This document shows, piece by piece, positions 17,432 to 21,485 of a DNA stretch of 64,000 nt. Numbering within the stretch: position 1 is the stretch's first letter; each line of letters starts with the position of its first letter. This stretch comes from Muribaculum sp. (GTDB lineage Bacteria > Bacteroidota > Bacteroidia > Bacteroidales > Muribaculaceae). The translations under genes were made by a program, and so were the position numbers. Under the pieces are notes generated by a model. It did no database searches. It was given only the letters and a program-made list of their open reading frames with translations, and was not told the origin of the DNA. The stretch is from contig JAMPAV010000005.1 in NCBI GenBank assembly GCA_023667055.1, positions 1 through 64,000 of the forward strand, written 5' to 3'.

Positions 17432-18934
17432 TCAGATTTCCTCTCCGCGAAGGGTTGCAGAGGAGGCATCCGTAACTCGTACGCGGATGAATTCACCCGG
17501 TTTGTGGTTGCCTCTTGGGAATACCACCACCTTGTTTTGTGAAGTGCGACCGAAAAGTTCCTCATGGTTACGTTTCGACACCCCTTCCACCAGGACCTCA
17601 AATTCCTTGCCTATGTCTTTCCGGTTTGATTCCAGGCTCAGCTCATTCTGTAGAGCTATCATACGGTTGAGTCGTTCGATCTTTACGTCCTCCGGCACAT
17701 TATCGGGGAGATGTTGCGATGCAAACGTACCCGGACGCTCAGAATATTTAAACATGAAAGCGCTGTCGAACCCGGCTTCCCTCATGAGCGACAGTGTCTG
17801 CTGAAAATCCTCTTCCGACTCGTTGTGAAATCCTGTAAACATGTCGGTGGAAAGACCGGCGTCAGGGAGAATCCTGCGTATGGCCGCAACTCTGTCGAGA
17901 TACCATTCACGGGTATATTTCCGGTTCATGTCTTTCAGGACACTGTTGCTTCCGCTCTGCACCGGCAGGTGTATGTGGCGGGCTATGTTGGGATGCGAAG
18001 CAATCACCTCGAGTGTCTCGTCGCTCATGTCTTTCGGGTGAGAGGTAGTGAAGCGGATGCGCATGTCGGGAGCGGCTTCAGCCACCATGGCGAGGAGGGT
18101 GGGGAAGGTTATGTTGTCGGTGTTGTCGGTGTTGTCGTTGTTGTCGTTGTTGTCGTTGTTGTCGGTGTTGTCGTTGTTGTCGTTGTTGTCAGTGTTGTCG
18201 GCGAGACCATTATTGTGCATTGTGCATTGTGCGTTGTGCATTGCGCATTGTGCATTGTGCATTCCCTCAAACCGGTAGGAGTTGACGTTCTGTCCGAGAA
18301 GGGTCACTTCCTTGAACCCTCTGGCCCGAAGGTCGGCAAGCTCGCGGAGGATGCTCTCCGGCTCTCGGCTTCTCTCGCGTCCCCGCGTGTAGGGCACGAT
18401 GCAGTAGGAGCAGAAATTATTGCATCCGCGCATGATGGAGATGAAGCCGCTCACCCCCGCACTGCCTATACGGCTCGGGATGATGTTGCGGTAGGTTTCC
18501 GTGAGGCTGAGTTCTATGTTCATGGCCTTCTCTCCCGCCTCTGCGGCGGCAAAAAGTTCGGGGAGCTGAAGGTAGCTGTCTGGACCAGCCACTATATCCA
18601 CCCCGTAATCATCTATCAGGACTTTCTTCAGCCGCTCAGCCATGCATCCGATGACCGCAATGATTATCCTGCGACCCTCTTTACGGCTTTTTGCCTTCCA
18701 GTGGCTTATGCGTTGATAGATTTTCTGCTCTGCATTCTCGCGTATGGAGCAGGTGTTGAAAATTATGGCTGATGCCTGGTGCTCGTCGTCGGTAAGTTCG
18801 TATCCGGCCATTCCCAAAACGGAGGCCACGACCTCGGAATCCGCCACATTCATCTGACATCCGTAGGTCTCTATGCACACTTTTTTCAAAAAAGTGCAGT
18901 TTTTATCATTTTCATGTTGAAAAACACTATCCAT
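17432..18934 (-). CDS. miaB: MiaB, tRNA 2-methylthio-N6-isopentenyladenosine synthase
   Basis: A 500-residue radical-SAM methylthiotransferase that modifies A37 of tRNAs reading codons starting with U. The N-terminal cluster cysteines are Cys26 (YGCQMN), Cys62 (NTCSIRENAEQK) and Cys97 (VIGCMAE). The radical-SAM triad is CNNFCSYC at 171-178, and a TRAM domain forms the C-terminus (FEVLVEGVSK onward). Residues about 225-274 are foreign: an NAQC/MHN stretch followed by ten Asp-Asn-(Asn/Thr) triplets, encoded by tandem repeats, inserted in frame in the loop before ITFPTLLAMV. Normal relatives have a short loop there (about 445 residues in all). A good minus-strand promoter precedes it. Confidence 0.93.
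   Translation of the reverse strand: MDSVFQHENDKNCTFLKKVCIETYGCQMNVADSEVVASVLGMAGYELTDDEHQASAIIFNTCSIRENAEQKIYQRISHWKAKSRKEGRRIIIAVIGCMAERLKKVLIDDYGVDIVAGPDSYLQLPELFAAAEAGEKAMNIELSLTETYRNIIPSRIGSAGVSGFISIMRGCNNFCSYCIVPYTRGRERSREPESILRELADLRARGFKEVTLLGQNVNSYRFEGMHNAQCAMHNAQCTMHNNGLADNTDNNDNNDNTDNNDNNDNNDNTDNTDNITFPTLLAMVAEAAPDMRIRFTTSHPKDMSDETLEVIASHPNIARHIHLPVQSGSNSVLKDMNRKYTREWYLDRVAAIRRILPDAGLSTDMFTGFHNESEEDFQQTLSLMREAGFDSAFMFKYSERPGTFASQHLPDNVPEDVKIERLNRMIALQNELSLESNRKDIGKEFEVLVEGVSKRNHEELFGRTSQNKVVVFPRGNHKPGEFIRVRVTDASSATLRGEEI
18113..18260. repeat. Two tandem-repeat tracts inside miaB
   Basis: Plus-strand 18113-18202 consists of ten 9-nt units (GTTGTCGTT or GTTGTCGGT). After a short gap, 18212-18260 consists of seven 7-nt units (ATTGTGC with a few changes). 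Together with flanks they keep the miaB reading frame open. The heptamer is the same one found at 20599-20626. Confidence 0.9.
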
Positions 18935-19030: not shown

Positions 19031-20533
19031 ATGAGTATTCCATTCATTACAGCAGAAGAAGCTGCCTCCTACATCAAGAACGGTGACAATGTCGGTCTGT
19101 CCGGATTTACGGCCTCCGGAACCCCGAAAGTGGTGACTGTGGCACTGGCCAAGCGTGCCAGGGAATTGCACGACAAAGGACTCCCCTTTAAAATCAACCT
19201 CTTCACAGGCGCATCCACCAACGACCATGTTGATGGTGAGCTGTCAAGGGCTGATGCGATAGCAATGCGCACACCCTATCAGTCGCACAAAGACTCGCGC
19301 AATGGCATAAACAGCCAGACAATCAATTATTTTGACTCACATCTGAGTCATGTGTCGCAGGATATCCGCTATGGATTCTACGGAGACATCGACGTGGCCA
19401 TCATAGAGGTGACTGAGATGAGTCCCAATGGTGATGTGGTGCTTGGGGCTGGTCTCGGCATGACCCCTACGCTTGCAAAAGTGGCAAAAAAAGTCATCCT
19501 TGAGTATTCCAGCTACTACAAGACATCATTCCGCGGTTTCCACGACAACTATGTATGCCTCGACCCTCCTCACCGCCGCGAGATACCCATCTACAAACCC
19601 TCCGACCGAATCGGCTCCACGGTGCTTCACATCGACCCCAAGAAAATCATCGGCGTGGTGCCCTCAAATGCCTCGGAAGGCGTGAAGCCGTTCACTCCGG
19701 CCGATGAAGTGACACATACCATCGGAGAGAATGTATGCAACTTCCTCGTGCAGCAATTGCGCACAGGTCTTATCCCCAAGGAATTCCTACCAATACAGTC
19801 AGGTGTGGGCAATGTGGCCAACGCCGTGCTTTACGGCCTTGGAGAAAATCCCGAAGTGCCTCCATTCGAGATGTACACAGAGGTGATTCAGGATGCCGTG
19901 ATGACACTTATGGAGCAGGGACACTGCAAGTTCGCCTCCACTTGCGCCATGACATTCTCGGATGACGCCATGCTTCACTTCATGGAAAACATAGATTTCT
20001 TCCGCGACAAGATATTGCTCCGTCCGGGTGAAATCTCCAACCATCCGGAAGTAGTACGCCGACTTGGCCTTATCACCATGAACACTGCCCTTGAGGCAGA
20101 CATCTACGGCAATGTGAACTCCACGCATGTGCTCGGCACCAAGATGATGAACGGTATCGGTGGCTCCGCCGACTTCACACGCAACGGGTACCTATCCATC
20201 TTCTCCTGCCCGTCGATCCAGAAGGGTGGCAAGATATCGGCCATTGTGCCCATGTGCTCACACATAGACCACTCAGAGCATTCAGTGAAGGTGCTTATCA
20301 CCGAACAGGGTGTGGCCGACCTTCGCGGCAAGGACCCACGTCAGCGCGCCGAGACCATCATAGAAAACTGTGTGCATCCGATGTATAAGGAAATCATGTG
20401 GGACTACCTCAAACTTGCAAACAAGGGGACAAAGGCCCACACTCCGCATCACCTTCATGCAGCTTTCGCACTCCACGAGACTTTCATCGACTGCGGCGAC
20501 ATGTCGAAGGTGGATTTCGCCAAGTATTACTGA
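19031..20533 (+). CDS. Acetyl-CoA hydrolase/transferase family (acetate or succinate CoA-transferase)
   Basis: A 500-residue class I CoA-transferase. GLSGFTASGTPK near the start and IQSGVGNVANAVL (oxyanion and CoA loop) in the middle are family hallmarks. The glutamate in EMYTEVIQDAV (about residue 283) fits the CoA-thioester-forming active site. IGGSADFTRNGYLS and the C-terminal acetyl-CoA hydrolase part are complete. Relatives move CoA between succinate or propionate and acetate in mixed-acid fermentation, which fits an anaerobic gut Bacteroidales. Substrate preference cannot be read here. Single gene with its own promoter, divergent from miaB. Confidence 0.9.
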   Translation: MSIPFITAEEAASYIKNGDNVGLSGFTASGTPKVVTVALAKRARELHDKGLPFKINLFTGASTNDHVDGELSRADAIAMRTPYQSHKDSRNGINSQTINYFDSHLSHVSQDIRYGFYGDIDVAIIEVTEMSPNGDVVLGAGLGMTPTLAKVAKKVILEYSSYYKTSFRGFHDNYVCLDPPHRREIPIYKPSDRIGSTVLHIDPKKIIGVVPSNASEGVKPFTPADEVTHTIGENVCNFLVQQLRTGLIPKEFLPIQSGVGNVANAVLYGLGENPEVPPFEMYTEVIQDAVMTLMEQGHCKFASTCAMTFSDDAMLHFMENIDFFRDKILLRPGEISNHPEVVRRLGLITMNTALEADIYGNVNSTHVLGTKMMNGIGGSADFTRNGYLSIFSCPSIQKGGKISAIVPMCSHIDHSEHSVKVLITEQGVADLRGKDPRQRAETIIENCVHPMYKEIMWDYLKLANKGTKAHTPHHLHAAFALHETFIDCGDMSKVDFAKYY

Positions 20534-20543
20534 TAACATAAAC

Positions 20544-20633
20544 ATTGCACAGTGCACAAATAACTTCGAGACCCAAATGAACATTTCACGAATCATGTAT
20601 TGTGCATTGTGCATCGCTCAATGTGCATTGATG
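20544..20633. repeat. ATTGTGC heptamer repeats around a gene start
   Basis: Two inverted-sense units (ATTGCAC, AGTGCAC) at 20544-20557, then direct units at 20599-20626 (ATTGTGC, ATTGTGC, ATCGCTC, AATGTGC) and a diverged one to 20633. The second block lies inside the coding region of the DUF4861 gene and encodes its signal-peptide core. Confidence 0.7.
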
Positions 20634-21485
20634 TCGGCGCAGGATTGCGCCGGCAGAATTTACCCGGAACGCAACGAGGATCTCTCTTTCGAGAATAATC
20701 TCGTTGCTTTCCGCATATATGGACCTGAGACGCAGCGCAGAGGTGAGAAATCGTTCGGCTACGACATATTCTGCAAATATCCGGATTCGGGAATGGTGCT
20801 TCCTGCCTTATACGGTGAGCAATGCAGCCGCGAAAACTGGGCAAAGGTTGATTCTCTTAAAAAGACTGAAAATGGCCGGGCAAAGGCCAAGGCTTTTGAG
20901 GATTCCTTCACGTATCATATCGACCATGGGATGGGAGCCGATTTTTATGCAGTGGGCCCCACGCTCGGATGTGGAGTGGCGGCTCTTCTCAATGAGAATG
21001 GGAAGATAGTCTTCCCGTGGTGTCATGAGAAAGCCGAAATTGTAGAGAATGGACCGGATAGATTTGAGGTGGTACTGACTTTCGCTCCGGTTGCAGTTGG
21101 AAATGACATTATCACCGAAAAACGCCGCATCTCACTGGAAAAAGATTCATATCTGTGTGATTGCGAAGTCTCCTTTGAAGGTATGACAAAGCCATATACG
21201 GTTGTGGTCGGAATGCCACGCCGTGATGACGGACAATCCTTCACTTCCGCAAGGATGGGAGTTGTGGCATACGAGGACCCGACGCAAAGAAAGGACAGCG
21301 GTAAAATCCACACAGGAGTGGTGATACCCGGAGGCGCGGAGCGCACTTACGAAGACCAAGGGCATATCCTTGCTGCAAAGACAATTAATGTAGGTGACAA
21401 ATTCAGATATAAATGGGGATATGCGTGGAGCAAGGGGAATCTCCCTCGCTTTTCAGACTGGCTGAATCATTTGACAAGTCTGTGA
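20577..21485 (+). CDS. Secreted DUF4861 family protein
   Basis: A 302-residue exported protein. The start at 20577 gives a signal peptide (MNISRIM, then a Cys/Ala/Leu core, cleavage near MSA/QDC). A longer open stretch upstream overlaps the previous gene and is rejected. The mature part has DUF4861 features: FGYDIFCKYPD, MGADFYAVGPTLGCG, FPWCHEKAEIVENGPDRF and a beta-rich C-terminal half (VVVGMPRR). Family members are found near carbohydrate-active enzymes, but function is unproven. The signal-peptide core is encoded by the ATTGTGC heptamer repeat. The last 19 bp overlap the convergent flippase gene. Confidence 0.8.
   Translation: MNISRIMYCALCIAQCALMSAQDCAGRIYPERNEDLSFENNLVAFRIYGPETQRRGEKSFGYDIFCKYPDSGMVLPALYGEQCSRENWAKVDSLKKTENGRAKAKAFEDSFTYHIDHGMGADFYAVGPTLGCGVAALLNENGKIVFPWCHEKAEIVENGPDRFEVVLTFAPVAVGNDIITEKRRISLEKDSYLCDCEVSFEGMTKPYTVVVGMPRRDDGQSFTSARMGVVAYEDPTQRKDSGKIHTGVVIPGGAERTYEDQGHILAAKTINVGDKFRYKWGYAWSKGNLPRFSDWLNHLTSL

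Follow-up and report, generated by a model that had tools for sequence, protein, structure and literature searches.

The sequences of signal peptides diverge much more quickly than those of the proteins they precede, and the origin of new hydrophobic cores is rarely visible. Rickettsia palindromic elements, palindromes of about 100-150 bp, are dispersed in frame in unrelated genes and are tolerated there by being open. In Yersinia, the enterobacterial repeat unit RU-2 lies in the predicted signal peptide of YPO1552 (PMC2759123), one published precedent in which a mobile repeat is part of a signal peptide. Heptamer direct repeats of the TAACTGA type occur in Beggiatoaceae, Cyanobacteria and five Bacteroidetes, and most arrays lie just upstream of start codons and some over stop codons or in ORFs near their ends (PMC4679880); the term 'signal peptide' has 0 occurrences in the sections consulted. 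Heptanucleotides are also the commonest class of long simple sequence repeats, which are dispersed and usually explained by slippage (Mrazek 2007, as cited in PMC4679880). Heptamer arrays before starts or in gene ends, as well as repeats in signal peptides, are already precedented. The comparisons presented here point to a dispersed array of 31 bp, with ATTGTGC as its heptamer unit, that has probably been captured repeatedly as the core of putative signal peptides, with the source of the new cores readable from one repeat, six genes, two families and array-free orthologues for four of the genes.

The window, a stretch of 64,000 nucleotides, is part of contig C55 of the 3.04-Mb draft genome of a Muribaculum sp. 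(G000), and the coordinates of its relevant features are collected in Table 1. At the start of the DUF4861 gene, TRF detected a period-7 array of ATTGTGC at 20599-20630, with 4.6 copies and 68% matches. Read from ATG 20577, the array is in frame as M-Y-C-A-L-C-I-A-Q-C-A-L-M and encodes the hydrophobic stretch of an N-terminus of the form MNISRI-MYCALCIAQCALM-SAQ (translation from this ATG, MNISRIMYCALCIAQCALMSAQDCAGRIYPERN). The first-pass annotation had proposed that the repeat supplies a Cys/Ala/Leu core and shares its unit with miaB, and both points are confirmed by the TRF arrays and, for the core, by the frame from ATG 20577. Within the range that it had marked, 20544-20633, the array itself is at 20599-20629, and 20544-20559 belongs to a degenerate copy that runs the other way. 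A hairpin function for this inverted pair was rejected, as the fold is no better than that of shuffled sequences (z -1.10; 31 of 200 shuffles as good).

Table 1. Features of the window, with positions counted from its first nucleotide.
Feature	Position	Strand	Remarks
Acetyl-CoA hydrolase/transferase gene, upstream of DUF4861	19031..20533	+	also the gene end next upstream of DUF4861 in G075 and G079
Degenerate inverted copy of the array, ACATTGCACAGTGCACAA	20542..20559	-	8 bp past the stop of the upstream gene
DUF4861 gene	20577..21485	+	PF16153, E 9.6e-56, profile positions 118-367 of 380
Proposed signal peptide MNISRIMYCALCIAQCALMSA	20577..20639	+	translation; predicted cleavage before QDC
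31-bp heptamer array ATT(GTGCATT)4 with four substitutions	20599..20629	+	encodes hydrophobic core YCALCIAQCAL
Alternative in-frame ATG, one base past the array	20631..20633	+	product from there would lack a signal peptide
52-bp ATTGTGC array within miaB	18212..18263	+	antisense to the gene; encodes MHNAQCAMHNAQCTMHN; found by TRF

The array in the DUF4861 gene is one of many. The 3.04-Mb genome has 51 exact copies of (ATTGTGC)2, and a search for (ATTGTGC)3 that allowed up to three mismatches gave 110 hits; the reversed-pattern control gave 0 in both searches, indicating that the array is not due to chance. A catalogue compiled from the surroundings of the first 100 of these 110 places, together with an unselected 400 kb of contig C11, comprises at least 48 arrays, one of which (C11:635080) is of a TTGAGA type caught by likeness. 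Exactly 31 bp is the length of 20 of the 48, while nine are 32 bp and three are 33 bp. The genome is also rich in other heptamer arrays, with 39 arrays of period 7, 8 of period 8 and none of period 2-6 in the 400-kb sample, so that tandem repeats of 7-nt units are dispersed over many of its loci. It was also considered whether every heptamer family has arrays of exactly 31 bp; this was rejected, since the period-7 arrays of this sample measure 22-40 bp, apart from one of 89 bp. Beyond this genome the unit is sparse: among 111 genomes of the genus, three contain exact (ATTGTGC)3, as do four of 393 genomes sampled from the order, G000 included in both counts. Two period-7 arrays were found in 117 kb of G075 (a sample chosen to include two ATTGTGC sites) and five in 40 kb of G081 (likewise chosen to include ATTGTGC sites), and none in 100 kb of G030 or 60 kb of G004. 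In G185, a member of another family, a related unit, ATAGTGC/ATTGTGC, makes up arrays of 145-352 bp (L174, L178, L246 and L247), and long arrays therefore do exist elsewhere.

The unit itself has unusual coding properties. ATTGTGC is open in all six frames, giving the hydrophobic IVHCALC in sense and the hydrophilic AQCTMHN in antisense, and because seven is coprime to three the same heptapeptide, IVHCALC, is read in all three sense frames. Each of seven other units tried has stops on at least one strand, and by hydropathy IVHCALC ranks 48 among 1612 open heptamers.

With gene ends taken from a purpose-made codon-usage gene caller, whose starts are crude, 35 of the 48 arrays begin or end no more than 25 nt from a gene end. 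Stop-proximal arrays are antisense to the gene in 19 of 20 cases (one-sided binomial 2e-5) and start-proximal arrays are sense in 14 of 17 (one-sided binomial 0.006), so that, as with TAACTGA-type repeats, one orientation prevails just upstream of starts; one of the three antisense exceptions is the TTGAGA-type array at C11:635080, not ATTGTGC. The DUF4861 array is counted among the start-proximal arrays because the gene caller chose ATG 20631. Of the 39 intergenic arrays, 28 are no further than 12 nt from the start or stop of a gene, compared to a mean of 12.4 and a maximum of 24 in 5000 trials of random placement in the same gaps. Some gaps hold an inverted pair, one array past the stop and another before the next start, and one complete pair elsewhere in the genome folds into a long stem (z -7.24). 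The possibility that paired arrays are the ends of a mobile element was rejected, as the sequence between them varies by place and no common interior was seen among the pairs compared. An assembly artefact arising from a 31-base word is likewise thought unlikely, because the arrays carry substitutions of their own and obey the strand rule. In G341, from another family, arrays also lie against stops and starts, many of them 31 bp or 7n+3 long. At one locus of G000 (L047, C33:13700-26000), consecutive genes that we take to be purine biosynthesis genes have gaps bracketed from stop to start by inverted ATTGTGC arrays or by arrays of the octamer GTTTATAG.

Four genes of G000 carry a sense array as their N-terminal core, namely those for DUF4861, a histidine phosphatase (His_Phos_2, PF00328; MKRLRSFLTLCIVHCALCIPLPCISQT), a DsbD-like protein (PF02683 and others; MKRFILSLLCIVHCALCIVAADAVQWD) and a BatC-like TPR protein (MKRILIYILCIVSCALCFNTAYASGNR). 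In each, as in Sec signal peptides, a hydrophobic core follows a basic n-region, which is MNISRI in DUF4861 and a typical MKR in the DsbD-like, His_Phos_2 and TPR proteins, and the hydropathy maxima range from 2.13 to 2.97 on the crude Kyte-Doolittle measure. Two arrays of G500, a member of another family, also form putative signal-peptide cores, MRTNLFNRTLCIVHCALCIVLCTSVHA (466 aa, with no Pfam match in the 409-aa piece scanned) and MIQKIVTLCIVHCALCIGLFAQQ, and all seven arrays inspected in that genome lie within long open frames. Five of these seven are antisense (L229-L233), one of them in a protein that we assume from a motif to be dihydrodipicolinate reductase. Antisense arrays of G000 form C-terminal tails, e.g., ...CNKCTMHNAQCTIKKS in a SufB/D-family protein, and the unit is thus present in frame in unrelated coding genes, including miaB. 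Alignments of miaB to six of six relatives skip residues ~230-273, a stretch of which the antisense array is part. Adjoining the array there (window 18112-18263) is an array of the nonamer TGTTGTCGG, which encodes DNT/DNN, and nonamer arrays resembling it are found at other loci of the genome (L044, L045, L052 and L054). In G075, G081, G341 and G185, none of the arrays inspected was captured at an N-terminus, which counts against the capture reading.

Array-free orthologues were compared for the four G000 genes. For the His_Phos_2 and DUF4861 loci, the automatic array scan covered only the 30 nt after the start of the match, and where the match began at residue 1 (e.g., L133, L135, L012 and L014) the translation was read to establish that no array is present. 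The array is absent from the DUF4861 start at all 16 loci from other genomes (L010-L025), from nine of nine His_Phos_2 orthologues, from nine of nine DsbD-like orthologues, that of G075 at 90% identity among them, and from seven of seven TPR orthologues. The first-pass annotation had called for a comparison of orthologous signal peptides, and the nearest DUF4861 orthologues do have ordinary ones without the repeat. The closest, in G075 (73% identical, same upstream gene), reads MARMALLAAIASGIALLCTDASAQTAYGRIYPERN, also given as MARMALLAAIASGIALLCTDASAQ, and the signal peptide of orthologue L010 ends ASAQ-TAYGRIYPERN. In G079 (67%, same upstream gene) the DUF4861 gene lacks a clear ATG, and the same intergenic site (L011) holds an array of a different heptamer, ATTTTGA (AATTTTGAATTTTGAATT), overlapping the upstream stop codon. 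The clearest comparison is provided by the DsbD-like protein, which reads MKRLTLSLL-TSLYATILAIAGF-AADAVKWD in G079 compared to MKRFILSLL-CIVHCALCIV-AADAVQWD in G000, so that the n-region and cleavage region are kept while the core has thirteen residues in the former and ten in the latter. The TPR gene shares one open frame of ~600 aa with its upstream neighbour in G090, G014, G079 and G104 (L160-L163), and in G000 it is separate, with the array at its start; given the shared frame in four relatives, its ancestral state appears ambiguous, which counts against capture in this gene. The array sequences, their dispersal and their absence from the orthologues compared are direct observations.

The main doubt in the reading of the DUF4861 gene concerns its start codon. 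The gene caller placed the start at ATG 20631, one base past the array, a distance also seen between other arrays and the starts that follow them, and the orientation is that of 14 of 17 start-proximal arrays. The array could accordingly be an ordinary untranslated leader in a lineage that has lost the DUF4861 signal peptide, which is a point against capture. Two properties of the longer product also count against a signal peptide: its hydropathy maximum of 2.13 reaches only the 80th percentile among the genes of the sample, and at -3 of the proposed cleavage site it has a Met, an unusual residue there by the signal-peptide rule. ATG 20577 is nonetheless preferred, because the SAQ that follows ATG 20631 matches the signal-peptide end of G075, because the maximum hydropathy drops from 2.13 to 0.46 (Kyte-Doolittle means, a crude measure) when the start is moved to ATG 20631, and because the other three G000 genes share the design with clear n-regions, MKR preceding the array in each. 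The four substitutions, moreover, leave no stop codon between ATG 20577 and the end of the array. We therefore regard an untranslated leader as rather unlikely. The first-pass annotation had itself named a start downstream of the repeat as the case against its reading; such a start, which we judge improbable, would leave DUF4861 without any signal peptide.

It had also been suggested that gain or loss of units switches the frame and thereby export, for which slippage would be the mechanism. The predicted truncation stands, as one unit fewer or more would yield a product of 15 or 42 aa while three more would keep the frame. The switching is not supported, since the DUF4861 array has two perfect units followed by four substitutions in its second half, in contrast with the long uninterrupted slippage-prone tract of a phase-variable contingency locus, and the confinement of 32 of 48 arrays to 31-33 bp argues against free slippage; a phase-variable export switch is thus very unlikely. 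Slippage could instead have given birth to the array locally and independently in each signal peptide from a chance TTGTGC-like stretch, for which a seed is plausible given that signal-peptide cores are probably rich in Leu, Ile, Val and Cys codons. However, the same unit, with the same ATT...ATT ends and length, is found at dozens of other places in G000, and independent births would not pick one common unit, making this origin highly improbable.

The preferred reading is therefore the capture of a dispersed array. In our proposal, a heptamer array of the kind mostly found just before starts, or reversed just after stops, came to lie within the DUF4861 gene at its 5' end, taking the place of the hydrophobic core in the gene's ancestral signal peptide, whose c-region (SAQ) would have been inherited. 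Arrays would be copied by some process and fixed where usable as a core, and the same capture has probably taken place in the DsbD-like, histidine-phosphatase and BatC-like genes of G000 and in two genes of G500. From these sequences we infer the insertion or replacement as an event, the signal-peptide function and the export. Capture would be workable because the unit has no stop in six frames and seven is coprime to three, and 31 bp corresponds to about ten residues, a usual length for a signal-peptide core. A length of 31 bp is not divisible by three, so that simple insertion would put the following codons out of frame, and replacement of coding sequence or a compensating indel must be assumed, which counts against the capture reading. 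The earlier idea of a mobile or expanding intergenic repeat taken into a protein is upheld as regards a dispersed repeat, mainly at gene boundaries, that forms the core in four G000 and two G500 genes; expansion is at odds with the lengths of the arrays.

This reading implies a rule for repeats entering proteins, in which a unit open in all frames and of a length coprime to three would always yield the same peptide. The strand of entry alone would then set the product, a signal-peptide core in sense and a polar tail or loop in antisense, suggesting how export tags may be rebuilt from repetitive DNA. A broader claim, that ATTGTGC arrays are a dispersing 31-bp Bacteroidales element that settles at gene boundaries by the strand rule and, since every frame of its sense strand gives one hydrophobic peptide, repeatedly rebuilds signal-peptide cores, providing a general route for signal-peptide turnover faster than that of the exported proteins, is put forward only tentatively, and we consider it doubtful.

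Compared to the systems described above, the ATTGTGC arrays share with Rickettsia palindromic elements their dispersal, their in-frame presence in unrelated genes and their openness, but the latter are longer palindromes, whereas a 31-bp tandem heptamer has no palindrome of its own. RU-2 is a 168-bp MITE-like element in one signal-peptide gene, whereas the heptamer array described here has 31 bp and occurs in six genes from two families. The TAACTGA repeats are likewise heptamer arrays before starts and at gene ends, but their unit has stops in all three forward frames, and the ATTGTGC arrays, unlike them, also have a reversed partner after stop codons. With long simple sequence repeats, as summarized in PMC4679880, the arrays have in common a heptanucleotide unit and dispersal, while their near-constant length argues for copying as a cassette instead of slippage. 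A literature search, with most subscription journals outside its coverage, returned no paper on ATTGTGC arrays or heptamer-derived signal peptides. As far as these searches reach, the recurrence in six genes and two families, the all-frames explanation, the in-frame core difference in the DsbD-like protein and the paired strand rule at stops and starts appear to be new.

Other repeat families were also observed in G000. A 66-bp TAACTGA-type array lies 9 bp ahead of a called start codon (L049:9099-9164), and at several places in the C11 sample (L096, L097, L108 and L109) a palindromic MITE-like sequence, AATGTCGCTAAATTAG...TTAATTTAGTGACATT, has TTAAGAG arrays on its flanks.
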